From: Oryzias latipes
Lineage: Eukaryota; Chordata; Actinopteri; Beloniformes; Adrianichthyidae
NCBI RefSeq assembly: GCF_002234675.1
Contig: NC_019872.2
Span: 13,885,950 to 13,949,949 of the forward strand
Direction: 5' to 3'
Length of the DNA: 64,000 bases
Of this stretch, positions 22,624 through 57,200 are shown piece after piece. The position numbers and the translations under genes were made by a program. Under the pieces are notes generated by a model. That model saw nothing but the letters and a program-made list of their open reading frames with translations. It was not told the DNA's origin and did no database searches. Within the stretch, counting starts at the first letter, position 1. Every line of letters starts with the position of its first letter.

Positions 22624-25600
22624 TCATGAGTCTTGGTTTCTGTATTGCCTGTTGATTTCATTGAGGACAACATCCATGCTTGGATCTTCATCAGCTGTGA
22701 TAATGTGGTCATCGAATGGACTGCCTGCAATGCAACACTGTTGTGAATACCTCATCAAATCATAAAGTGAGTCAATTATGCTTGGATCTTTTGAAGGGAT
22801 GTCACTGGGGGTGCCTCCCCTTCCACTTACTGATGCCATTTGTCTGGTCTGAAGCTTTGCTGACCAAGCGAGAAGACATGGGCGAGCCTTGGACACGTGA
22901 CAATTTTGAGGAGTGAAAAGACGCTATTTTGGATGTGGAGAGGTTCCTGACATTCTTCTTTGTGGCACTGTGGCTCCACTCTGTAAGGAGAAATGGAAAA
23001 TTTTTTAAAACTTAAAAAGGTACAAATCATATTTACTATCATGGAAGAGAAATGCTTTGAAAGGGCAGGAGTACACATAACAGAAGCATTTATAAAGTTA
23101 CATGATAACTTGTTTGTAAGACTGGAATCATTTAATGTGAAGCGAAAATGTTTCACCTGAGTTTTCTGAATGCCTCAGTTTCCCACAGCAGAGGTGGGCG
23201 CTCCACTGCCTCCTCACACTTTCCTTCATTGCACAGTGGAACACAAAAATAAAGAAACCTGAAAAATAAGAGTTTTTTTTTTATTTAAATTTAAAATAGA
23301 CACAAACCTAAGCAACAAGCAATAAAGGATGTGAAATAGATGGAACAGCTGATGCATCAAAGGGAAATTCTTGCACAAATAAGTTCAAATGGTCATTTTT
23401 ACTAAAATAATTAACCAAAACAATTTTCTTGTGGTGTAACAAACCAGAGTATATAACTTTTAACCTTCTTTTTTTCCTGTAATTACTGATTTATATCCCC
23501 CTCACCTTGCAGGGAGTTAAAAATGGCAAAGAGATACATGAAGGCCAGGTTGACAGGACCCCAGGCGAAAAAGGCAAAGCCCCAAGTGAGGCCTAGCAGG
23601 AAAGTAATTCCTGTGACGCTCCGCAAATCCTGCAGTGTGGAGCGGTGCTGGTTGTTTTGAGGGTTCTGCCTTTTTATCCGCTGCAGTTGGACCAGGACGA
23701 TGATCATCATGGAAAAGTTAAAGATGAAAATAACACAGAAGTAGGCCACCACGGCTACGTAGAAAGCAATGTCGTTCTTCAACCAGCAGCTGGGAAAACA
23801 GTATGGAAGATATTAATGCATTAGTGAGATTGTATTTATGATTAAATTATGTTTTTTCAGTGAGAAAGTCTGAGGACTCACAATTCATCACTAGTGCCGT
23901 CTGTATATTTGCCATAAGACACTTGACCGTAGTTCTCGACATCAATTGCGATGACAATAATAACAACAACCATGGGAACACCCCATCCAACTGCTGAAAA
24001 CTTTAGCAAGTAGTGTCGTATGTGGCTGTTGAAGACTTTCACAAGAGCCATGTACATGTGGACGCCTTCCAGTCCCATCCAAGTGAAGGACGCCAGCAGG
24101 AAGTAGTGAAGAAACCAGGCAGTGGAAGTGCATAGGCCCACTGCGTCTGTGTAGAGCGCCAGCCACGCGTCCACCAGGAACACCAGGTTGAGCAGCAGCA
24201 GAGCAAAGCACAAGTGGATCAGGATTTTGGATGGTATGTCTTTGCGTAATTTCCTGTAAAATCAAATAGTTCAGAAGGATCAAAACCGTGATGCTTTTAT
24301 GTAGATGATATGCAACTTTACATCAGATCTGAACATTGTGACTTCAAACAAAACCACAACACACCAACTCACTCAAAGAGCAGGTAGGTGAGGAGAGTGA
24401 AGGCCAAGAAGACGGCAGAAATTCCACATCCAATGTATGTGATGAAGGTGAGGATGGTGTTCTGAACAGCACTGATTGAATTTTGTCTAGAGAGGTCCTG
24501 TTGGAGAAAATATGGAAAACAGTGTTTGTTTCCTTTCAAAAACACCAAAAGTAAAAATGAATTACAAGAATGTGATGGATGATCATTACCAGCAGGATAG
24601 CAAAACTGGTCAAATGGTTGCAGCTGCAAGTTGTGTTATCCTTTGTCGTGTTTTGAACAAAGCAACCATTTGAATTCCAACCGCCTGATTGACCTGCAGG
24701 TAGATGACAAAGTTCAATCATAAGTGTTTACACATTGACTTGTTCATATTTACTGAATACCAGTTGAAAGAAAACTTACTGTTTAGTGTAAAATCCCAGA
24801 AAACACATGTTGCCACAAAATTAGCCTGCAATGAGGAAAAAGACTCAAGTTTATCTTAGTTTGAAGTGTGCAAACAAATTCTGCAATATTATTGTTCAAC
24901 TTTTTGATTTAAAAAGAAAATATGTCAAAGTACTGTAGAGTCATTTTTGGTTTTGGAAGATAAATTGGGAAATAAGCCTAAAACATTTTTGACATCATGC
25001 ATGACATCTATTTTCAATTTTGTCATGGACTATTAACTGTAAGAGAACTGAGTGCCCCCCCGTGTTCCAAAAAAGGAAGTATCTGCTGGTTCCAAGAAGC
25101 CAAAATTAGCAAAGAAGCCAGTTATTACTCAGTCATTCTATTTGTCAGAATAACCAGCCCTGCTACATTTTTCTCTTACTAATCTTGGTTTTTTTTTCTC
25201 GTTTTCTTTTTGTGTGTAATGCAGGTTATTTAAGTTATAACAAGCCAATCAGATGCCTCAATAAAAGTATGTCTTCTTACGTCAAAACGTTTGATTAACA
25301 GATTCTCCTGAGCCTGCATGCTTTCAAGTGGTAGGGCTGTGGCCTTCAAACAATTGTCCCTCTGCTTCATTGCCACAGAAATGTTGACTCAAACTGACTC
25401 AGACCAATCACTGGTAACCGGTGATGTCTGGCTCCAACATGGCAGCGTCCATATATCACAAAAATGTGGCGACTGAATTGATTTAATTTCATTGAATCTG
25501 GAAGTAAACTATTTTCTACTTGTGACTTTACACTAAGTCAGTCTTGTTTTCATATACAGTCAAAAATAAAGGCATCCTTGAAATGATGAATTTGAGTCCT

Positions 25601-28600
25601 GTACTAGAATACATGCTTCAGTGACTTTTTAAAAGAAAAGAAAATAGGACAAAATTTGTCTACAAAGCAGACTTACTGGAACAGGTTCAGTGTGTCTCAG
25701 GAAAATTGTGACATTTTGTCTTAATCCACTGACTGAAATATTGCCCACACTTGCTCCGAGGATACCACTGTTGAGTTTACGATCTCCCAATGACTGGTCC
25801 TGTGTGTTCATAGACAGCACAAAAAGCAAAATGTTAGTTCATAACATCAAATCATGCAAAATTAAAGCTATTTCTGTAGTGACTTTCTGAAAGTGACTCC
25901 ATGCTTTGGCAGAAACTGATGATAAATTAACATAAACACCTGAAACAGTGTGTTCTTCTGATAGAAATTGTAATGGACTCTGGACACGAGCCTCTGTTCT
26001 TCAGTTGTCAGGTTCTGAGTGAGAAAGGGGGGCAGACTGACAGAGCCCTGTGGTCCGGAGGAGTCAGCCCCCAACCTCAACACCCTCGACAGCTGACGGA
26101 CCTGCAGCACACATGAACAAACAGACACGCTTAACAAACAGATTTTTATTTGGGGCAGCTGACATCTGTCGTTAGTGTTACACAAACAATAAGTGCAATC
26201 CAGACATGGACTCAAATCATGTGCAGAAGTCTGTCATTGTGAACAAGTTAAGTAGGTTGGCAGCCAGAATTTATGACCTCATTCACCTCACTGCACTTTT
26301 TTACAAACAGAAATGGGTCATATGGCTTAATCCTTTAGTGTGTTTATTTTTTTTTACTTAAAAATTATAACACCCCCCCCCCCCCCCCCCCCAAAATAAA
26401 ATAAAATAAATGTTGCATCAGCTTTAAAGAATAAGAAGGATTTTTCTGAAAATTAAAGCACTCGTTCCTAAAAACCTGAATAAAATTAGAAACTCTCACC
26501 TGAACGTTATTGGGATCTGTTATGGAGAAAGAGGTCTCTTGGAAGTTTGTGCCATCGGCTGGTGTAACAGACAGAGCAATTGATGGAGCAAGCAGACTTT
26601 TAGAGTTTGCTCCAAGAACCAGCTTAAAACCCACAGTGTCAACAATCCGGATGATCCTAATCAGGTCAAAGAGAAAAAAGCAATACTGTGAAAGATTTGC
26701 ACAAAGCTTTGGACATCCTTGTAAAGCTTTTGTGTGTGAAAGGTGCAGCGTAAATAAAGCAGCCTTGGTACTTCCATGAATTAAGTACCGGTATATCAAT
26801 ATACGTCATTAACAAATCTGAGTCCCTAATTGGTCACAATTTGACCTGGTTTAACTCTCAACGCATGTTCAGTGACCGCATTGTTTGTACGCAGAGCTCG
26901 AAAACAGTCGTACAAATGTTCGTTTTGACACACAAATGAGTTTTGAACGCAGAAGAACGTACTTGTTTACATAGAATTCAAGTGTTGATTATTTTCCAGT
27001 TTTCCAGATGGTAGAAAGGTATTTATCCATCCATCTATCCATTTTCCAAACCTGCCAAATCCCTGTTGGGGTCACAGGGTTGCTGGAGCCTATCCTATCT
27101 TAGTCAAAGGCAGGGGTACAACCTTTTTAGGTCACTAGTCTATTGCGTGGTTGCACAACCACACACTCACATTCACAACTGGGAACAATTTCACCAATCA
27201 AACTATGAAGCATGTTTTTGGACTGTGGGAGAAAGTCTGAGTGCCTGCAGAAAAGCCACACATACTGTACACTAGGAGAACATGCAAACTCCACACAGAA
27301 CTTCATAGAAGGATGCTGCCAGTATTTGAACCAGGTTCTTCTATTGTGTAAAGGTAAAGAAGCAAGTGAGCTACCTTCTGGAAGAGTTTGACAGCTTCTC
27401 AGGTGAAGCGCCCAGGAGGTTGTTGACAATGAATACAGAGATGTTTCCCAGAGTCAGGCTGATGTTTGGACCTGACAGCAGGTTTTCCAGATCCGACACC
27501 AGCTGATCTATGTCGCTGGATGTCAGATTAGATATGTTCTCTGTCCGTTTAAGCAGTGCTGCAGCTAGATTTTCAGCTGCAATCAAACAAACCAAAATTC
27601 AAATCATTCCATAGTGAAAGAGTAAAATTGTATCCGTCTTTGTTTTTTCCTAACTCTTTAATTAATTTAATAGTAATCTGTTCTGGATATTTACAGCAAA
27701 CCTCAGTTACCTGAGTTTGTGGTGGCCGTAGTCACTGTGGAAGTGCTGGTGTTGCTTGTGGTTACTGTTGTCGTAGTTGTCTGGGTGACATTAGCAGCAG
27801 TCGTGGGTTTTTGGGTTACGGTGGAAGTAGGTTGTGTTGTTGTAGTATTTGATGATGAAGAACCTCCACTTCCTGTGTTGGAGCACCACTCATCCAGCTC
27901 CTCAATGACATTTGTTTTGTTTTCACTGCAATAAAAAGGGAACACAAAGGGATGTTGGTTAAACTACTTTTGATTTTGCAACCGGGTTCAAAGTTTTTGT
28001 AAAACAAGGGAAAGCAACACTAACCATGTACTGATATTATATTCATTTATTGTTTCACAAAAGTTGACAGGTTTTGAGGACGTGTTAGCCCAGGTAAATT
28101 GGGGGTTTGGCAGATCATCCTCTATCGTGAAGTTTCCACAAATTGCTGTATAACAAAAGACAAAACACCATTGAGAACCTTGTCTCTTAAAGAATTATTT
28201 CTTTGTTTTTCGTGACATACACACCTGCTCGTCTGATCATCCCATCAAATTTGATTTGTTGTAGGGACTGAGATACTGTTTTTACAGCGGTCTGCAAGGA
28301 ACATAGTGGGACTTCACTGGTAAATCCTAAAATCACTCTGCAGAGTTGGCTTTTGGGTGAAAAAAGCAAAAAAATGAGTTGAATATTTTTAAAATATTTA
28401 ATCTCAATGAAAGTACAGTGGGAAAAAACAAGAGACTCACCTGTTTGCTGGGACCTCACAAGCCACATTGGCACCCTGCAGAGAAAAAAAACGGTTTAGC
28501 TGCAAGAGTAACTTTAAAAACAGTCAAATTAACAAGTACTTTTTAATATTAGATGTAACATACAGTGAAGCATTCAAATTAGTTATTCTCCAATATATTT

Positions 28601-31600
28601 TAATCTCACAAAGTATTGAATAAAAACACAATTTTAGATACGATACAGTAAAATTATTGTTTCAGGCAATAAAGTCCAATTTTACAACATTTTCTTACAG
28701 AAACTATTATCTAAACTATATAACTATTATCCCTTTCATGCCTGAATTTATTTCCAATTATGTAAAATACGTTGTCAGTGTATCTTCATGGATTTCATGG
28801 TACACTTGAAAAATGTTCTTCTCAAAAAAGTTATTTATGTTCCATGTTATAAGTAAAAACATCTGCCAATGGAACTTGGAATTTAATAGAACTAATCATT
28901 TTATAAGATTTTGTAACAGAAGTTGTGTTGTTCTCCCCTTTTTAAAACAAAATACAATCTGAAAATTTGCCATAAAGACTCATAACAGGTATTTTGCTCT
29001 GGTAATTGGAAATATTAATTTCTTAAATTAGTGTGTATTTCTCAAAAACGTTTTATATGTTTAAAGTATGTAAAACCTACATATTTATACTTTTTTCGCC
29101 CAAAAATATTCCCTTTTAAGCACTACATCACAGACTATATTAATCCTAAAAAAAAGGACAAAAATTGCACATTTAAAAGTACAAAATCTAGTGAATCAAA
29201 TAAAACTTCCAGGTTTCCCTAAATCTCTAGAGCACTTATCACGTACAAATATATTAGAAATATCGTGTAAAGTAACGATAAAAACAAACTTAAAAAAAAA
29301 GATATTCCTTAAAATAAGATGTTTTAAAAACAAAACGATGTTCATTAAGATCTTCTTTTTGAAAATTTACAAGTAAATTAATTTTGTTTTAAATCAAGTC
29401 CAATAAGATATTTAAACTAAAAATCAGGCAAAAATACTTGAGATTTTGTGTTTTTGCAGTGATTTGTTGCAAATTAGCAACATACAGCATGAAGGGTTAC
29501 AAAAGAAGCTGTGTGATTCTTGTCTTGATACCTTGTATTGGGATCCATTTACAAATGGTCGACATGTTTCACTGAAAATAAAAAAGGAGTTTATTTCCAA
29601 TTTGACACAATAATCTTTCCACTGACTGTTATTTTTCCATGATTGTCATAAATCCAAACTCACTTTGTGAAACAAGTTTCATTTAACTCAGAAATCTGTA
29701 AAAAAAAAAAAAAAAGTACAAAATGTATTACTGTAAAAACAAACAGGTGTAACATAACTGACAACTGGTCTGAGAGTGACTGAGATGTTACCAGTGTGTT
29801 GTAGCCTTGTGAACAGTTTATGTTTGGATTTTCAACTGAGACAAAAAACATGTAGAATGCATCTAAAAGCAGAAACAAAATTATCTGATTAGAGGTTTTC
29901 AAAGTAAAACTACACATTCTCAGATAGTTAATTGGTTGATAAAACACTGACCTGATCCATTGCAGTAAGCAGAACAGTCACAGCTGAAGTTTCCTGCATA
30001 AAGTCAAAGAACAAACATATTTTATTTTTGTGTTTCGAATTCTTGAACATAATATCTTTGTTTAACTTCCGGAATTAACATAATTCGTTCATATATTTAA
30101 CATGTTGTAAACATTCTGTTCCCTCTGAATTGATCTGGCAAAAAGCATACAGAATGATGCCAAAAAAAGGTAGAGAACTAAAAAATATATAGACGGAAAG
30201 GAAGTTTGCTAAATTGAGAGGTGCAATGACTAGTGTTAATTAAATGTATTGGTTTGAGACTACCTGTGTGGTTCTGGGGCTTCGCAGTTCCACAGATGGT
30301 TGAGTTGTTTTGTGGAACCTCATTTGCAGGGACAAATTCCTCGCTATTGAAAGATTGACATGCCAAAATGTTTATGTGGATCAACGTCTTGTATTTCCAG
30401 CTTTGCAAGTTATGTATTTCCACTGAAAAGGCTTAATAATAAAATAAAATAAAAAATTAAAATTCTGATATAAATTAAAGAAACAATTAAACAAATTTTG
30501 CCTCCACTAAGCTTCTAAGCAACTATGAAAAAAACAACAATAAAACATAAAAGCTGTTGTGGAAAGAACTAAGCAAAGATTAAAAAGTGCAATTTTTCTT
30601 GGACTATTTAGACACAAATCTGTGGCTTTTGTCTATAGCAGTTTATTTAAAACCAATGCATGGATTTGCATATAAGACAGCTAATGACAGAAAGTGTTAG
30701 GTTTTTTTTTCCTGCCTCCGCCTGCTCCCTTTTTGCATACAAAAATAAAACCATGACAGAGCACCTTACCAATTGGTTTGGTTTGAGCCAGAATAACTGC
30801 AGCTGGTTTGATCCATTTGAGGAGTGCTGCACACAGTCTGAAGAGGGCCTGTTTAGGAGCACAGACAGTTGTTTTGAAGCAGCAACCTACCAAGTGTGTA
30901 ACTTGTGAGAGAAACTGTATACTTACTAAGTCTCTCTGCCTTGTTTCCCACCAGAGAGATGTCTGTTGAGTTTTTAGTGGCGGTACAAAGTGTTCGGAGG
31001 ATGCAACATGGCGGCACCGTCTGATTTAGCCGTAGTGTCGCAGTGCATGTGCTATTTCTAAAGCACAAGAATTGTTTTAGTGACGTACTCGTCTACAACA
31101 ATGGCAAACACTAAAAAAGGTATTTCACTCACGTAAATGACGTTTTAGGAAGACATGACACTTCCACTCCCTGTTGAAAATCGAAGTAGGTTAAACAATG
31201 CTTCTGTTCAAACTATCAAATGGAAAAATATGATAATTAACTTACTTGAAATAAAGAAGTATTATTTCCTTCCCACCTAAAACAGAAATTACTGTTAACG
31301 TTTAGATTTCACTTTTGCAAATGATTTACTAAAGTACATAATTGAAGGGAAAACTTTCAATTGCAAATTTTTTATTGCTAACATGCAGTTTTTCTGCATT
31401 GAAATTTGCTCACAAAAATCTGCAAAGCATCAAGTAGCACTGACTTTTGTGTTGGGTTTGAAGAGGATGAAGTTGTAATAACAGCGGCGGCTGTGCTTGG
31501 AGGTTCTGGGAGGATGCACTTCTGAAGGTTGCTCTGGAAAATATCCCTCAGCTAAGAAAGACACCAAATCAATCAGACGCTCAATTTATGTACATGATAC

Positions 31601-34600
31601 AGCTCATATTCTGATTGTTAAATAGCAGCAACACACACCAAGCCAGTAATTTCCGTTTCATTCTTGGGTCCAACTGCCTTCACAGTGATGCTGATGAAGT
31701 AAGAAACACCTAGCAGAGAATGAACATCAGTTTATGAGTACAATCAGTAATGAAGCTTATACAATGGGCTGAAGAACAAATAAAATAAATTGACCAAATG
31801 ATTTCCTGAACCATTTACCTGGTGGGAGACCTACTGTTGTGGGATGGGGAGGAGAAGTGCCAAAAGTTGGAGAAATGGAGCTTTCCCCTGAAAAAGAGGA
31901 AAAACACACTGTTGTTAAAAAGTTTTCACCCTTTCATTAAAAAATAATCTTCATTTGTAACTTGGAGGTTAAAATTATTTAACTGGTGAGAGTTAAAAAC
32001 AGATATATATGTATTTTTTTTTACCAAGTCTCTTTTTGTCTTTTAACAAGAAATCTTTTGAGCTTTTTAGAAAATGTGTAAAAAAACACAGAAAGCTGGT
32101 CTGTCTGGTAAAACATATTGAAATGTTTTTTTAAAAGGAAGGATTTTTGACTTGTGATGTGATTTTTGGCAATGTGAGTGGGTAAACTCATTTTATTATT
32201 ATACGTTTTTTTATTTTATTTCATCTTCACAAAAAACGTTTACGTTAAAATCAATGCAAGACATGTTATGCGGTGGAAATGAAAGGGAACAGAATGAAGA
32301 AAAAAGGTATTTTTCTGCCCCTGTTACATGCATCCATTCAACAAAAGAGCAAAAAGTACGTCTACAACACACATTGTCACTTAAAATAATTTGGAGTATG
32401 TAAACATCAAAACATAGTTGAGAATACCATCAAAGCTTAGGAATTTATAAGTATTATCTTTTTTTACTTTTCTACACGACAGTAGTTAAATAAAGTCATT
32501 AGTTGAATTTTTGTAGAAGCTCTTCTTTGAATATAATTGATGATTTAGTTCAATATGCGAACCCCTTGAATTCAAATGCTTTTTCCTTTAACTTTGTTCT
32601 GAATTTTTATAATGAGAAAAATCTCATGACCTTTAGGAGGACATGGAAACATGTGGAACATGCAACATCAGTAAAATACTGCAATAAATTACCAACAAAT
32701 GAGAGGATTCTGTGAGGCACTTACTGGTACCTAAAGACGCTCTTATTGTTGAACGAGGTGGTGGTGAAGTAGAAAATGGTGAGGTGGGGCTGTGACCTGA
32801 TAAAAAAGACAAACAGGAAAACACTGTTGTTGAAAGTTTTCACCGTTCTATCATTTTTATTTAACATGTGGTCTGAAAATAATTTAGCTGGTGAGGATTA
32901 AAAAGCAATCAGTCTGAAATGGTGAAGGGCTGGTCTACTTCTGGTGAAACAAATTTGATCCGTTTTCCTTTAAAGCAAAGATTTTTAGGGGCGTGACAAC
33001 TAGTACTTTGACTTTTAAATAGAGGTACTTTAGCCTGATATTTGTTTTTGGCCTTCATTTTCCTCAAAATCCTTAGAGAAGATGAAGCTTTTACTGGTAA
33101 CAGGTAATCTGTCTGGCTGATCTAAATCTTTTTTTATTTTTTATTTTTGCTTTGTTTATGTCTGTAAGATCTGCATAACTCAAAGCTGCGCAGATAGCAG
33201 AATTATTTATGCTTTTTGGAAAAAAAGAAAGATAAAATTAGCATTTTGATTGAAGGCAGTGACCTGCATGTTATAAGGATTCTAAATATGATCAAGACAA
33301 AAAATGAGGCTGAGGTTGGTGGACAGGGGAGAAGGGGGGCAGAAATGTTCACCTGTATGCTGATGGGATTGACTGAAAATCTGATTTCATTACACACTGT
33401 GTGTGTAACTGTTACTATTTTTTTGTAAGTGAAAAGGTGAATTTTTGCCAGCCACTCTATACGAGGGAAAAAAGAAGTCAACATTATTAGAAAGTGACAT
33501 GATTTTGTGAATCATTTACCTGCATTTCCTGTTGGTGTTTTGGGGGTCGAAGGGCTCTGAGCCGTGGAAACTGGAAATATTTAAAAGATAGAACAACTCT
33601 AAACTGGAATGTTTTGCTCTTTAAGGATATGACCTGAGCAGTTATTGAAAATAACAGATATGCAATCAGACTTTATAAGGTTTCTCTGCAGCACATGTGG
33701 CTTTGGCACAGCAAATAGAAATTGAACATTACTGAAGAAAGCAAAATTTTATGTTGTTGAAATTCCCTTTAGCAAATGTGAAATGTATTATTAAATGTCA
33801 GATCAACTACTGTCCATAATTCTGTTTTCCTTTGTAAAGTAAGTCACACGGCTTCAGCCTTCTGAAACTGCAAGACCAGACTAACAGGTTCTGGGAGAAA
33901 TTAAAAATAAAGAAACTCAACTCATTTGTGTGTGTGTGTGGGTGACTGTCTCCACGAGAGTGTCAAGAGATGCATTTAGTTTTGTTTGGCTGGATTACAT
34001 CAACATCCTTCCTAGCCTTTCAACAAAGAAGTGTAAAGTTTTCCAGTTGATGTCAAAGCTTACCTGTCCAAAGGATGGCAAGCAGGCAGAGAACCCATCT
34101 GTTAAAGAAACCCAGCTGCTTTGTTCTGTAATACAATTAATTAAGTTATTCTCCCTTTTTGAAACTGACTGCATTGAAGGATACACTGTAATGCCGTGCG
34201 TGTAAATCAATGAGCTGAAGATTTCCCTGGAAAATGCAAAAACAGTTGCTTGCTTTGCCAATTCATCCTTTTGTTTTTTGATTGTATAATGTAATGACAG
34301 CCTTAAATACAAAATTTCTTTCAATTACAAAAGCGGGACATTTGGCCTGATTTGCACATTCTAATTTTCATATTAGCAAATACATTTTTGAAGTTTAATT
34401 TAGTCTTGTCCTAAACAAATTCTACTTATTCACCAAAGGATGTTATATAATTGGTTCTTTTCCAGTTGGGTTAAACAAAAACAAAAACATGAATTCAGTT
34501 CTTTACTCATTCATTTGTCATTTACACAAGCTTCTTCTTCAGGGGTGTTTAAAAAAATTGCATCCATACCATCTAAATATAAGATCATGTGGTAAAAAGA

Positions 34601-36659: not shown

Positions 36660-36813
<154 letters not shown>

Positions 36814-40595: not shown

Positions 40596-43500
40596 CTATG
40601 CATACAAGCTCCAGTAAAGGATGTTGAAGAGCAGATAAGCCATAGGAAATATAACTCTGGAGTAAGAGTCAATCATGTAGCTGTTGCTCATAATGAAGTT
40701 GAGGTTGTGTTTTATTGTTTTCCGGCGGCGAAGCCTGGTCCCTTCTGAAGGCGCAGAGACGGTGGAGTTTCGCGATTGCGTGTTTCTCTCTGTGTTCGGG
40801 GTGCTGGTCCCCTCGGGAAAAGAGGGCAGGTCAATGTCGTTGTCATGGAAACACCCATCGAAGGCCATAGCCTGGTTAGCATTAAAGGAGCTGGGAATCT
40901 GTGGAAAAAGAGAGCATGTTGGTCCATTCGTGCTGGTGATTTAGGATTGATTTAAAAAGATTTTGTGACGCTAAAGACCTTTGCGTTCTTGAGCTTCTTC
41001 ATCTCCTCCACCGTGGTGAAATAGTTGACGGCAGCGTATTCAATGACAGACAGAAAGACAAACAGGAAGCTGGCCCATAAGTAGATGTCCACAGCTTTGA
41101 CGTATGAAACCTGCGGCATGGAGGCTGAGACGCCAGTGATGATGGTGGACATGGTCAAAACTGTGGTGATACCTGGGTACACAAAGCGACAGCACAAAGC
41201 ACGAGTATTAAAAATGTTGATTTACAAAGTCTGGAAGGATTATAATACATGCAGTGCATTTAAATGTAGGTCAGTGGATCACAATCCCTGCAGTGTAATA
41301 GTGTCTCTGTAAGCCACAGGTCCCATCACTTAGAAAAAAAAAATAAAAAGACATATAAGCAAAAAAAAATAGACATTAAGAATAGAAAACCATCACCACC
41401 AACCAACACATATTCACAATGGGCTGTTAGAGTTGCAAAGTTGTAAAACATATATTGTTAACAACCTGCATATTTTATTTTTACATTCCCCCATTAAAAA
41501 TTTCCATCCTTTCCATCAATCTAAATGTTAGGTGTCTGAACATATTTTTTTCACAACTGCCTGTAGAACAAGGCGGGGCGGGGTACTTTTTGACTGATGA
41601 GCCAAAAAAGGTTCTAAAATTTTACAGAAGGACCGGACCAGGACCAGATGCTCGTGTGTGAGGCGTGTTTTGGAAATAAGAGAAGCTAATAACATGGAAT
41701 CATGAACACATGATTTAATTTTGATTGAAAATTAATATTTAAAAAAAGTAATTTTTATTTTTTTACTTTGGCTTTTGTTTTAACCTTAGTGCCAGTTGTA
41801 CTGATGGGTTGAAGTCCCTCCGAGAAAAACGCAGTTTAGAGAAATGCTGCCTTCATGTTGTGTTGGAATGATCTGAAAAATTACTGTCCGACTTGGGGGG
41901 GAAAAACATGAAACCTTCCAACACCACACGAATACAGAATAACTTTATGTACCTAAACAAAGGTCAATGTATTTGTAGTGCAGCATTTATGGGGAGACAC
42001 CAGAATTAGAGAGAAAATAAAACATTAATGGTGATTATTAATGTATTTTATTCCAGTTTGGCAGACCAGATGAAATTGTTTAATGGGGGACACATATGGC
42101 CCCCGGACCGTAGTGTGTCCACCCCTGCTGGATTGCAATTTTACAACATATACAGAGCATTTTCCAATTTTTTGTTTATATATGTATAAAAACATATATT
42201 TTCTAAATACCCAAAGAGACCCGTGCAGGCACAGCCCTCCTGTCTATCCAGAAGGAAACCCAGGATAGCATGACCATCAACATGGTTGGAAAGTAGGTCT
42301 GCAGCATGAAGAAGAAGATGTGCCGCCTTAGAATGAAGTTTATGTAGAGTCGATTGTACCAACCTGGAACAAAGACAAAGTTGAAACACATAACAGACCA
42401 CACACAGTATCATACTTATTGTAAATGTTAAAGAAAATGTGACAGTAGCCACACACAGATATGCAAAAACAGTGACTCCAAATTGCTGCCATAGATAGGA
42501 TTGAAATCCTCTTGTACAGAAACGTGCTGAATTATGGGCCAGGCTCAGATCATCATTCCCTGTTTTTCATGGTTTTTCTTTCATTAAATATTACCATGGT
42601 TTAGTAAAATGTTGCATGCCACATATAATAAGTTTAATATGTCAGAATCATGTAAAAATATACAAGTACTGGGATATCTGTATGTAAGACAAAGTTATAA
42701 AAGTTTAAGCCAAACAGGGCAGACAGAACAAGACGCAGAATTCCCAAAGTGTATCCATTAATGCTTTGAATTTTAATTTGAATGAATGGTTATAGAAATA
42801 GTGGTCACACTATTAAAGACGAGTTTACCTGTACTGTACAGTTTACCTGTAGTGTACCTGTACTGCTGCCGCAACAAGGAAATTTCCCCATCGTGGGACT
42901 AATAAAGGAATGTCTTATCTTATCTTTTCTGATTTATTCGTGCTTCATCTCCCTTTTTTGTTTCATGACATCTAAATGTAATTTTAATTTAGCAAAACCT
43001 TCTGCACTTTACTTTACAACAGCGACACGATGTAAAAGAATGCAAAGCAAATTTTAAGGTGCATCAGGCAAGACGCAAAAATTTTGGACTTCTATGTGAG
43101 TTTCAGTTTAAATGTTTACAGACCCAAACCATTAAAAATTGTTTTTGGTGTTTTGATAATAAAGATACAAGAAAACTAGACTTAAAATTGCATTCATGAT
43201 TATTTCTTTGTTGTAATTGTTGGGAATTATGACCAGACAAAAATAATGGTTGTAATTGTTCCGTAGAAAGTACGACAGGCAGGCCACAGGTTTCCTGCTC
43301 TGCTCCATTCTGATGGATTCACCTGTAGACAAATACATCCATGTACATCTTCGTTTTCCTCACCTGAGCTGGCATCTGGCTCAAAACTGTACGGCTGGAT
43401 GGCCACAATATTGCTTGGCATTTTTGTTGCATAGATTGTGGTTGTGAGGGCTGTAAGCGCCATGAACTTGCTCCAAAATATCTATCTGACCTGATTCAAG

Positions 43501-51254: not shown

Positions 51255-54200
51255 ATGGCGGTGACACATGCAGTGGAGTTTCTGCTGCTCGTTTTTCTGG
51301 AGAAACTCTCTTGGAGCGACACAAAAGGTATTGTACAAACTAAAATTTGTAACTTTTTGCATTTGGGATGAGCTGAATGATGACAGTGTTTACGTTAATG
51401 TGAATATTGGGAATTTGTGTCAAATTGTTGGACGTTTGTGGTCAAAGGAAAAACATGTGCCGGTAACGATTTTTAAAGGTCTGCTTTCTCAAAAGTCTTA
51501 GAATAACCAAAAAATAACTAAAGCATTAGGTAAATGGATGAAAAGTCCTACTATATACACCTACTATTTTAAGACACAAAGAGCAAAATGTAAGCGATTT
51601 TTGGCTAAAAATTGAGTATGGATATGTTAACTCAAGAACATTTTATTTAAAGTATTTCGATTACAATAGGATAGAGCAGTCAACTGAAAGACCTGTATGA
51701 TATAAATCAGTAATCAAATGAAGTTAATGCTAAAATAAAAAAATAAAAAAACATTTTCAATCCTGACATGACCGGTTTCCTCAGTCGTTCTTCCAGATGC
51801 TAATGTCACCTGCATCATCCCTGAAGACTGCATCCTACCCTGCAGCTTTAAACCCGCCAGCACAGTGGTAATCCACTGGTACAAGCAGCAAATCCCTGTT
51901 CACAGCTACTACTACAACAAGGATCAATTTGGGCTGCAGAATAAGCATTTCAGTGGACGGACATGCTTGTTCAACTCTCATATCCCTCATGGCAATGCCT
52001 CCCTGCTCCTCAGAAGGGTGAAAGTTCAAGACAGGGGCAGGTACAAGTGCTACACCAGTACACGGAAAAGCAACCAGGAGATGTTTGTTAACCTGGAGGT
52101 GAAAGGTCAGTGTACTGCTAAGGCTTTGGTCACTTGTGTAACAATACTTTTACAGCATCCTGCTTTTGACAGTATGCTCCAGTAAAGCTTTGGGGTGGTG
52201 AAATGATGTGGGCGTGACACCACAGTGGAACATTTGCACGTTTTTTCCATCTGCAGGCTGAACTTGACTTGTTTTTTAATAGGAAGGCATTTGGAAAGCA
52301 AAAAACCGACTGACTCGTTAAGGGTTAATTACCAGCTCATTTAAAAAACAAGAGCAATGTCTCGCGCCAAAAACATGCAACACTTGTGTTTCCTGCATGT
52401 GGCCTCAACTTAACAAGTTGAAATTCTGTCTGTCTTTTTATTGGCTCAACACTAGATACCTGTGCTCAATTTAAGTAGTTCTTGAAGATCTGTTGATTTT
52501 GTGCTGCATCTTCAGTCATTTTCTTCAATAATAAAGGATAAACTAAGTTCAGTTGACAGTTTTTTTACCTACTATTTTTGATGGAACCAACTTAGATGAA
52601 TGAGAATCCACACAAACCTTCATCATAAGGTAGAAAGGTTTGGCTCAAGTGTCACAATTTCACGTTTGTTCAAAATTGTAGTTCACGCTTCAGAAAAAAA
52701 TATTCTTAAAAGTGTTTTTCATGATTTGTCACAGACTCATTCCTTATTTATTTTTTCTTTCTCCCTTTTCCAACCCCGGGGTTTTTGGAAGATATTTTGA
52801 GTCATGAAGCGTTTAGGATTTTAAAACAAATGTACACATTTTTAGTTTACTAAAGGCTGTCGCTTGTGTGTGGTACCTGGATGTTGTAAACGTTTTTTTT
52901 CTTTAGCAAATAATAATAAATTATTCTTGAACCTGCTGAATGTCTAGAACTTTGCTCACAGAAGTTTCTCCTGTAATACATGTACGAAGAGCTCCTTTAA
53001 CCATGTTTGGTACATTATCTTTATCATACACAAACATTTCCAAATACCAGAGGCCACAAAACTAATCTATTGATTATGGAGTCCTATACTGTTCATAATT
53101 AAATAAATAAATATTTAATTCAATAAATAAATATGACGTCATGCAAATACACAATCAACCAATAAATCTCTCATAAATATATAAAAAGATCATGAAATTG
53201 TGAAAAACCTGCACACTGATTTTAAATTAGCCATTGTATTATTCAATATATTTCATTTTGCTTTAAAAACATGTTCATTATTTTAAAACAGCATTTTAAA
53301 ATATTCATTTTTAATCATGTTGAATTTTACTATAATTCTGTCTTTTTTCAGAAGCTCATATTTCAAAATCGAATATTTTCCAAAGTAGCTTTGTTTTATT
53401 TCATGTTGCTGTTTTTCACAATGGCGTATTTATTTCATGAAGAGCTTTTTCAGCAGAATGGGTCTTTCTGTCAATCAGTGAAAGTGGGCGGGATCTAAAC
53501 GCTCATTGGCTCATCCATGGAAATCGACTCATATTCCTCGATACCCGCTCAGCGGTGTGCCAGTCAGAGATTACATGTTTCAGCGATATCTGCGCGGCTT
53601 TGCTGACATTAGAGATCAAATAGAGACAATCTATCTGTCTGCTGCAGAAGATGCAAACATCCACAACTCTGTTTTTGTAGTTTGAGGGTTTGTGTGGACC
53701 AAACCACAAAGGAGCTCCGGTCGTCAACATCTTTCACACTCCTCATTCTTACGCCATTCACTCACAGCTCACATCGTGACATATGTCGGCTCGCAGGAGG
53801 ATCGACAGAGTGAGACCAGGCAGCTGTGCAAAGCGGGACAAGCCTGCTCGGGCCTCCTGAACCTTATGATATTTTTCTATTTTCAATGAGACAATGATTA
53901 TAATCAGGTCCTCTGGTTTTATTTTTCCCTCTCAAGAAAAATGTTGAACCTTTCCTGCGATGACGTTTCTGACATCTTAATACTCTCCATGTACATTGTG
54001 CATCCATGCATTGTTACTGAGATAAGCACAAGCAACCGCTCCATGTGGCTATAAGGCTAAAAACATTAGCTTGTTGCCCCTCCCACACGCGGCATGGTGC
54101 GTTCATGGAAACTCCAGTTCATAGAAGCTTAGTGGAACTCCAACAACCACTCAGCCTAACTTAGACCACTACTATACGTTCATGAGAAGATGAAAATTGC

Positions 54201-57200
54201 CAAACCGACCACAAAATCACCTGAATTATGCACACTCGCCCAAAGCCACTTTTATCCGCAAATTTAGAACCAAAACTGCCCAATTTCTTGTTACACTGTG
54301 GATGTGTTGAGGTGCATACTCCCCCTAGTGTTGAGGGGTGTGCATTGCGCCGTCACGTTTGCTGAAGCATCTTCGATCGATATAGTCAGGGGAGTTAGGG
54401 TGCTGCTGCTCATGTCTGGGTAAAGGAATAGCCAATCACAAAAGTGTCTCCGCCTTGTCTGTTTGATTGACAGACAGACCCATTCTCCTGAAAAAGCTCT
54501 TCATGAAATAAATCAGCCATTGTGAAAAACAGCAACATTAAATAAAAACAAAGCTACTTTGGAAAATATTGATTTTGAAATCCGAGGTTCTGAAAAAAGA
54601 CGTAAAATTATAATATATTCCACATGATTAAAATGAATATTTTTAAAATGCTGTTTTAAAATAATGAACATGTTTTTAAAGCAAAATTAAATATATTGAA
54701 TAATACAATGGCTAATTTAAAATCAGTGTGCTGGTTTTTCACAATTTCATGATCTTTTTATATATTTATGAGATATTTATTGGTTGATTGTGTATTTGCA
54801 TGAGGTCATATTTATTTATTGAATTAAATATTTATTTATTTAATTATGAACAGTATAGGACTCCATAATTGATGGCCCATGGACAGGAAAATTAAACCCT
54901 TGAGGAACTGCAGCTGAAAAATCTGCACTTTTTGAAGCCAATGCAGCTTCACATTTCTGTGCACGGATGCAAGACTGACTGACACACCTGCACCTGTTTT
55001 CCATACCATTGATGCAACTATGAACTGCATGACCTCTAACCATTCACTTTCCTCCAGCTCCTATTCAGATGGTGACGATTAAGATGACAGAGGAGTGGGT
55101 CACTTGCTCTTCGCAGAACGTTTACCCCATACCTCAGGTATCATGGGCCACAAATCCCCCCTCAGCCCAGGAGGCTCTTGAAAATTCCACAATCAGAACC
55201 ACAGACCATAAGGGTCTGTTTACTGTGGAGAGTATGCTGAGGATTGTGGGTAACTTCAACAATTATACCTACCTCTGCTCTTTTAAATCATCGGACAAAA
55301 CTCAGGTTTGGATCGCCTCATGGAAGAACCAAGGTGTGTTTTCACAAGACTAAATGATGACATTTTCATTAGAGTGTAAGATGAGTAAAGGTCAATGAAA
55401 GCCATGTTCTGCATTTCGTTTCAGAAGATGTAACACACGAGGAAGGACATCCAGTACTCATCCCCTGCAATGCTCCACAAATGCTCCACAACTTTTCCCT
55501 CACTTGGACCTTCTCCTCTTCCAGTGAGCCCACACTCATCTTGAGATATGACAACAGAACCAGACAAACTACAAACCAGTGGGAGGGTCAAGCAGAACTG
55601 GACCAGGACTTGGTTCTGCTGGGGGACGGATCTCTTCTACTTAACAAGCCTGATAGTCAAGAGCATTCTGGGACGTATACCTGCATGTTCACAGCCTTAC
55701 ACAGCAAACACATCTTTCAAACCAAAGTCAACATCACTGTTGCAGCAATAAGTAAGTGTTGGAATTGTTCTTTCTCTGACTTAGAGAAAATTCTGTGTTG
55801 ATTCTGCACAAAAAAACCCACTAAAACCTCCTGATTCCGCAGGTGTGGATGAACAAAACACGCAGAGATCATGGTGGAGTACCGCAGCTTCTGCAGCTTT
55901 TGTCCTATTTACCGTTATTGTGGCTCTGCTTCAGTGTGTTAAGCAAAATGGTATGTGCTGCACTCAGTCATGTTGATAAAAGCATTGGAATGTACTTTTA
56001 GGAGAAACTGCAGATAAAACTTGTTTAGAACTTTGCAGAAATACTTCATATTTCTCTGTATTTTTAAGAAAAGGATAATTTTCTAGAATAAACTATTTGA
56101 ATAAAACGTAACCATAAAGCTTAATATAGATAAACAACAAATGTAGAATATCTTTGATTTCCATCTCCTGTCTTCTGCATACATTCCAAAAAGAAATGAG
56201 CCATGAAAGATATTTGTTAGGATTTGAGTTGTTTGAGCTTTATAGACTTCATACTGACAAATTAAAAACATTTCAAATCATATTTTTTTGTCCCAAAGTC
56301 AAAAGTTTGGGAGGAAATTTTGAAAATGAGTTGAATCATCACATTTTCTACCTCTTGTACAACTCTTCCAACTTTAAACCAATTGTCAGTATAAAACAGC
56401 CAATGAAAAAAGGCAAAAAAAAGTCAAAGATTCTTTTAATAAGGCAGATTAGAAACATAATGATACAATACCACAGCACACTAGTGTGTGACCTGAGTTT
56501 AAAAACGTCTGAAAATGTAAAACACAGATCTGGCTATGAAAATAACACTTGACAAGGACCACAAACCACTTTCTTAAGAATATGTCCAAGAAATTGGATT
56601 GTGGAAATGTTGATTTCAGACAAAAACAGGTTTATGCTGCCAGGCTCAAGTAGTTTAACAATATTTTTGTGCCCATATATCATCTACTGAGGTGCACAGT
56701 GGACCAATGGTTGGTGCTTTTGCCCCACAGCGAGAAAGTCCCGGTTTCTCCAAGTTCTCCCTTTGTATTCGTGGATTTTCTCCAACTCCCTCCCACAGTT
56801 CATTCACATGCTTTATAGGTTGATTGATTAGTCTAAATTGTCTCTGGATAGGCTGACAATCTGTCCATTGTGTACCTCACCTTCTCCCAATTATAGCCAG
56901 GTTAGGCTCCGACAGGGATTAAAATGGGTGGATGACTGAAAAGTAAAGAAAACCATGCATCAATTGTGTTTGTTTATGTCTGTCACAGCAAAAGAAAACT
57001 CCACAGCCTCACACAGACACAACGGAACAGGAGTTATTGAAGGGGGACTTCTTCTTTACATGGACCTCAACCCATCTGCCATAAGAGTAGGACCACATGG
57101 TGCTGACATTGATAAGGAACAAGCACAGTCGGAAGTACATAATCAAGCAAGCAGCCTGCTGACCAAGCCAGAAGACTGTGACAGGACTTTGGGAGAAGGT

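Follow-up and report, generated by a model that had tools for sequence, protein, structure and literature searches.

Does the ectodomain of an ADGRG2-type adhesion G protein-coupled receptor of Oryzias latipes contain one extracellular module or two copies of it? The question is raised by a 64,000-nucleotide stretch of contig C14 (positions 13885950-13949949, hereafter the window), for which an original prediction, made from the letters alone, had proposed the tandem duplication of an eight-exon block in the receptor gene. We analyzed this gene together with its relatives in the same genome (734 Mb in 25 contigs were searched). A run of exons with the same phases recurs in tandem, and a second gene, on contig C20, has the same double layout. 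In our judgement, the encoded ectodomain is probably arranged as mucin - (SEA + HormR) - Cys loop - (SEA + HormR) - mucin - GAIN - seven-transmembrane (7TM) region, the module having been copied long ago. The repeated module, to which the original prediction gave no name, is most likely SEA plus HormR.

Results

The gene lies on the minus strand; its 31-exon model opens near 34.1 kb with a signal-peptide-like exon and closes with a stop codon at 22624 (cf. Table 1). Pfam analysis of its C-terminal half revealed 7tm_2 (E 3e-55) and GPS (E 1.1e-15), the latter reading H-L-T, i.e., of the cleavable type by rule. The closest PDB chains were two of ADGRG2 (E 1.5e-184 and 4.3e-184, query residues 392-1036), while ADGRG6 was a weaker match (E 1.3e-154). 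With its GAIN/GPS and 7TM parts closest to ADGRG2, the gene is classified here as an ADGRG2-type adhesion receptor.

Two blocks of exons, A (31887-30264) and B (29993-27711, both on the minus strand), show the same series of start and end phases (1-1, 1-0, 0-2, 2-0, 0-2, 2-1, 1-2, 2-1), identical in all eight pairs, as had been claimed. All 16 exons (A1-A8 and B1-B8) have AG/GT borders and a jointly open frame. In a comparison of every exon window of the model with every other, A1/B1 was the sole start of a repeated eight-exon phase run, and permutation of the 30 intron phases (20,000 trials) gave a run of at least eight in 0.36% and of at least seven in 1.2% of the trials. Exon lengths agree for exons 2 (71/71 bp in A/B), 4 (31/40), 5 (38/35) and 6 (131/125) and disagree for exons 3 (107/32), 7 (79/121) and 8 (80/215, B8 including a mucin stretch). 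The mucin extension attributed to the second copy is indeed present, as B8 holds a Ser/Thr-rich stretch (59% Ser + Thr over 61 residues). Furthermore, A2-A8 (537 bp), B1-B8 (681 bp) and B2-B8 (639 bp) are each a multiple of three and run from phase 1 to phase 1, so that copying or skipping them preserves the frame.

The homology of the first exon pair was rejected: A1 and its flank match mucin exon M2 (66% over 175 bp, E 1e-15), whereas the best match to B1 is 20 bp long (E 0.7). Since A1 is a copy of M2 and B1 is a short Cys-loop exon, the proposed block of eight homologous exons shrinks to seven, A2-A8 and B2-B8. M1 and A1 also have a shorter stretch in common (68 bp, 69%, E 4e-5), and the local copying of M2/A1 includes intron flanks. 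The mucin exons at this locus multiplied more recently than the module.

A genome search with the 7TM part gave 54 matches, 15 of which cluster at C3:34.34-34.69 Mb, where related receptors have multiplied locally. Parts of three other genes, on contigs C24, C20 and C10, were compared with the window gene, leaving aside this cluster and a gene at C14:7742212. The C20 gene shows the same double layout, with a distal unit, C, before a B-like proximal unit, D, and we labelled it adgrg2-like on the basis of its B-like module and of a mucin stretch that lies directly before GAIN. The Ser/Thr-rich stretch of D8 comes after a C-x13-C start, as in B8. Judged only by their 7TM exons, the C24 gene (67%) is nearer than the C20 gene (59-61%) to the gene in the window. 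The segment next to the window gene that contains a presumed GABA-receptor gene had 35 matches, none of them near C20:25.6 Mb, and an origin of the C14/C20 pair in the teleost genome duplication therefore lacks synteny support. A single Ser/Thr-rich exon of ~4 kb (~1,300 codons, C20:25624231 down to about 25620192) is found in the C20 gene where the window gene has only ~60 mucin residues, and the C20 intron between exons C2 and C34 contains a long minisatellite (about C20:25632750-25631850) that is open in three frames.

The exons of the adgrg6-like gene on C24 (C24:1847204-1850750) have phases 1-0, 0-2, 2-2, 2-1, 1-2 and 2-1, which is the series of the window gene minus the intron between exons 4 and 5. 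Given the phase frequencies of the window gene, the chance of this series is ~6e-4, a figure made less independent by the exons having been picked knowing the phases sought. In the exon product, residues 1-92 matched Pfam SEA_Gpr126 (E 1.8e-5, 25.2 bits, cut-off 29) and residues 97-153 matched HRM (E 0.053, 14.3 bits, cut-off 26.2). The loop exon of this gene was not found. In the HormR-like part of the window gene, the exon phases equal those of the adgrg6-like gene; B7 and D7 have the HormR-like pattern C..[FY]TW..C, and A7 and C7 lack its Trp. The two-module reading is strengthened by these two relatives, since the C20 gene has the double layout and the adgrg6-like exons match the phases over SEA and, weakly, HRM. 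The C10 gene, which we infer to be adgrg4-like, has immediately before GAIN a phase 2-1 exon whose end is HormR-like; the SEA and first HormR exons of this gene were not found within C10:11064222-11078518.

Comparison of A with B by residue gave a less uniform picture. Alignment scores against shuffles ranged from P 0.016 to 0.15 in six settings and came to P 0.018 and 0.058 when the local test was repeated. Similarity of their own was found only for exons 5 (P 0.021) and 6 (P 0.011), and none was supported for exons 2 (P 0.10), 3 (P 0.73), 4 (P 0.66), 7 (P 0.99) and 8 (P 0.88); summed over the seven exons it reached P 0.07. The local BLOSUM45 optimum falls in exon register. As to the Cys patterns said to align, GVEVSC/GANVAC and the following C-x12-C (TC..VPPC/LC..VPLC) are in register in exons 5 and 6, but the third pattern, in exon 8, lacks support of its own. 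A tight Cys pattern found in A and B arises in 0.6% and 0.8% of shuffles; a looser one, found in A, B, C, D and a solved ADGRG2 chain, arises in 5-15% of shuffles of those five and is absent from the adgrg6-like module. Joint MAFFT alignment of A, B and the solved chain misplaced exons, and that of A, C and the chain misplaced exon 5 of C. A recent duplication was rejected, as the DNA of A and B shows no match with an E of 1 or less, and a repeat search returned two short families, neither linking the blocks. The proposed tandem duplication thus survives only in the layout, with no DNA similarity left and weak protein similarity, and the A-B similarity of the residues taken by itself leaves the case open.

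Modules A and B contain 10 N-glycosylation sequons each, and 10 and 13 Cys, respectively. Neither the SEA autoproteolysis motif G[ST][VI]V[VI] nor a furin-type R-x-x-R motif occurs in any of six modules. Searched by itself against the PDB, module B had no match up to E 10, and the one match of module A by itself (E 2.5) was dismissed as chance, as were the sub-threshold Pfam matches of A to PH_PRMT_N (E 0.17) and of C to SRCR (E 0.28).

Discussion

Taken together, this locus is best read as an ADGRG2-type gene that encodes the same extracellular module twice, a reading strengthened by the C20 layout and the adgrg6-like phases, though not to the eight-exon extent originally proposed. Several results weigh against it. 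The direct protein similarity of A and B is weak (P 0.0045 at best). BLASTP of A against B was not significant (E 0.093), the BLOSUM62 optimum falls out of exon register, and an exon-permutation test did not single out the true A-B pairing (25.6%). HHalign, the comparison by which the original prediction was to be checked, placed exons 5 and 6 in register, but with probabilities of only 7.8% and 1.9%. None of A, B, C and D has a Pfam SEA or HRM match, A-C similarity is at P 0.15, and exon C8 was not found in the C20 gene. On the adgrg6-like side, both Pfam scores are below cut-off, the first exon, S2, has a poor acceptor, and B and D have no sequence match to the module (P 0.93 and 0.36; profile P 0.41).

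Some of these points could mean that A and B differ in origin, with phases alike by chance or intron reshuffling and only B belonging to the ADGRG2/4/6 stalk. The BLASTP value, the dissimilarity of exons 2, 3, 4, 7 and 8, and a seven-exon phase run expected in more than one permutation in a hundred all fit this explanation. We nevertheless think it quite unlikely, as two other genes have the phase series as well, exons 5 and 6 are in register, and the C20 gene likewise has a distal unit before its B-like unit. Alternatively, both SEA-HormR units could be real, but A could have been shuffled in from another gene of the family, or the window and C20 genes could have doubled independently. A symmetric block, phase 1 to phase 1, would lend itself to such events, and the A-C similarity is weak; however, the order and the distal/proximal layout are identical in both genes, and A, C and the solved ADGRG2 chain have a hand-chosen LNxT core in common (see below), which makes this explanation improbable to us. 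Finally, the genome may have two modules of which mature transcripts mostly use one, through skipping of a block. The frame-preserving sizes of A2-A8 and B1-B8 would allow it, and a mouse survey lists Gpr64 among the receptors with variable N-terminal domains (PMC6667449). We regard predominant skipping as unlikely, and it is in any case compatible with two modules in the gene.

Under the two-module reading, a SEA-HormR unit, of the kind reported for ADGRG6 and ADGRG4 just in front of GAIN, would have been copied as a phase 1-to-phase 1 block at an early date, which probably preceded the split between the two adgrg2-like genes of this genome. The exon phases, the C20 double layout and the adgrg6-like exon match are what was observed; from them we infer folds and function. 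Because the SEA autoproteolysis and furin-type motifs are absent, each unit would most likely serve as a disulfide-stabilised, heavily glycosylated spacer and adhesion surface. With the second unit the stalk would be longer and would gain another binding face, through which force would reach GAIN and the tethered agonist TSFAILLDLSRQ; the length of the stalk could be adjusted by skipping a block in frame.

The original prediction had also remarked that this arrangement was not known from mammalian ADGRG2, and the solved structures agree with it. A human ADGRG2 sequence used as query matched two distinct ADGRG2 chains (E 4e-90 and 5.8e-90), 7xke_R and 7wui_R, which we take to be mouse. As in the window gene, these have GAIN-7TM and, before mucin and GAIN, a Cys loop (CNLSSLC) and a C-x10-C-x12-C stretch, each present once. 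Residues 253-501 of 7xke_R contain no Cys, and its first 68 residues (not inspected) are too few for another unit, so that the chain has one unit only. A single Cys-rich unit before the mucin stretch, a further mark of the ADGRG2 type, is thus seen in the solved chain, whereas the window gene has two. Over 17 hand-picked core residues, the Cys being kept fixed, identities to the solved chain were 7/17 for A (P 5e-5), 6 for C (P 0.003), 5 for D (P 0.007) and 2 for B (P 0.19), and A-C gave P 0.011. These values suggest an A/C-type unit in mammals and a doubling that predates the fish-mammal split, although they prove neither. A possible, if doubtful, history starts from two SEA-HormR units in the ADGRG2 of the bony-vertebrate ancestor. 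Fish would have kept both; the mammalian line would have lost the GAIN-proximal B/D type (HormR Trp present) and be left with the distal unit, the degenerate A/C type that has an LNxT core and a shortened HormR.

ADGRG6/GPR126 has the order disulfide loop, SEA, HormR, GAIN, with CUB and PTX in front (PMC6954182). The loop directly before SEA and, in the C24 gene, exon phases 1-0, 0-2, 2-1, 1-2 and 2-1 are likenesses to the window gene, from which ADGRG6 differs by its single unit and its CUB and PTX; the C24 gene differs also in lacking a mucin stretch between its unit and GAIN, in having one intron less, and in a sequence dissimilar to B/D. In ADGRG4/GPR112 the order is PTX, mucin, SEA-HormR-GAIN (PMC13197933, PMC10687090); like the window gene it has a SEA-HormR unit and a mucin stretch, but the unit is single and the mucin lies in front of it, not behind. 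ADGRG4 also lacks the SEA autoproteolysis motif, and SEA is listed for F1, F5, G6 and, as predicted, G4 (PMC10687090). Two gpr64/ADGRG2 genes are described in zebrafish (PMC4335454, PMC8584163).

No SEA or HormR is named for the ADGRG2 ectodomain before GAIN in the literature passages matched, and these passages, among them some of PMC13062082 and PMC12922695, report neither a double module nor a SEA in ADGRG2, predicted-structure libraries and subscription papers lying outside this scope; a SEA in human ADGRG2 may already be known from public models. The intron phases give this region an identity and link it to ADGRG4/6. If the double unit is ancestral, mammals would have a reduced version of the ADGRG2 stalk, in which the unnamed N-terminal region would be an unrecognised SEA-HormR. 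A natural two-unit receptor would also allow a test of whether tethered-agonist activation changes with stalk length or with a second binding face. Men and male mice with inactivated ADGRG2 are infertile (PMC8584163).

Features and neighbours in the window

Table 1. Positions of the receptor gene's features in the window (S2, S3, S7, S8: adgrg6-like exons; C and D: C20 exons)
Feature	Phase	Position	Strand	Basis
Exon end, signal-peptide-like (end part only)		34064..34099	-	Frame and donor
M1, mucin exon	1-1	33520..33570	-	Exon model
M2, mucin exon	1-1	32725..32796	-	Exon model
A1, mucin exon, outside module	1-1	31819..31887	-	Local copy of M2 (see text)
A2, module 1 exon 2, probable SEA strand 1	1-0	31639..31709	-	Phase common to B2, C2, D2, S2
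A3, module 1 exon 3	0-2	31445..31551	-	Phase common to B3, D3, S3
A4, module 1 exon 4	2-0	31246..31276	-	Phase common to B4, D4
A5, module 1 exon 5, GVEVSC	0-2	31133..31170	-	Similarity to B5
A6, module 1 exon 6, C-x12-C core	2-1	30927..31057	-	Similarity to B6
A7, module 1 exon 7, degenerate HormR-like, no Trp	1-2	30770..30848	-	Phase of HormR exon S7; no sequence support
A8, module 1 exon 8	2-1	30264..30343	-	Phase of S8; no sequence support
B1, Cys-loop exon	1-1	29952..29993	-	Orthologous exon D1 (CDCAAFC)
B2, module 2 exon 2	1-0	29792..29862	-	Exon model; phases across genes
B3, module 2 exon 3	0-2	29664..29695	-	Exon model; phases across genes
B4, module 2 exon 4	2-0	29532..29571	-	Exon model; phases across genes
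B5, module 2 exon 5, 35 bp, GANVAC	0-2	28441..28475	-	Length and phase equal D5
B6, module 2 exon 6, 125 bp, C-x12-C core	2-1	28225..28349	-	Length and phase equal D6
B7, module 2 exon 7, HormR-like C..FTW..T..C	1-2	28025..28145	-	Aligns with D7; phase of S7; no Pfam match
B8, module 2 exon 8, C-x13-C then Ser/Thr-rich	2-1	27711..27925	-	D8 starts C-x13-C, also enters Ser/Thr-rich stretch
GAIN region with GPS, six exons		24590..27576	-	Exon model; Pfam GPS
7TM region and C-tail to stop, six exons		22624..24497	-	Exon model; Pfam 7tm_2

Elsewhere in the window, an AT dinucleotide array of 148 bp occupies 36663-36810, and the 3' part of a ligand-gated ion channel gene, which we take to be GABA-receptor-like, lies at about 40600-42370 on the minus strand (Pfam Neur_chan_memb, E 2.7e-42). 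Two Ig V-set exons on the plus strand, at 51772-52185 and 55385-55801 (Pfam E 4.5e-10 and 7.1e-11), possibly belong to two Ig-type receptor genes side by side.

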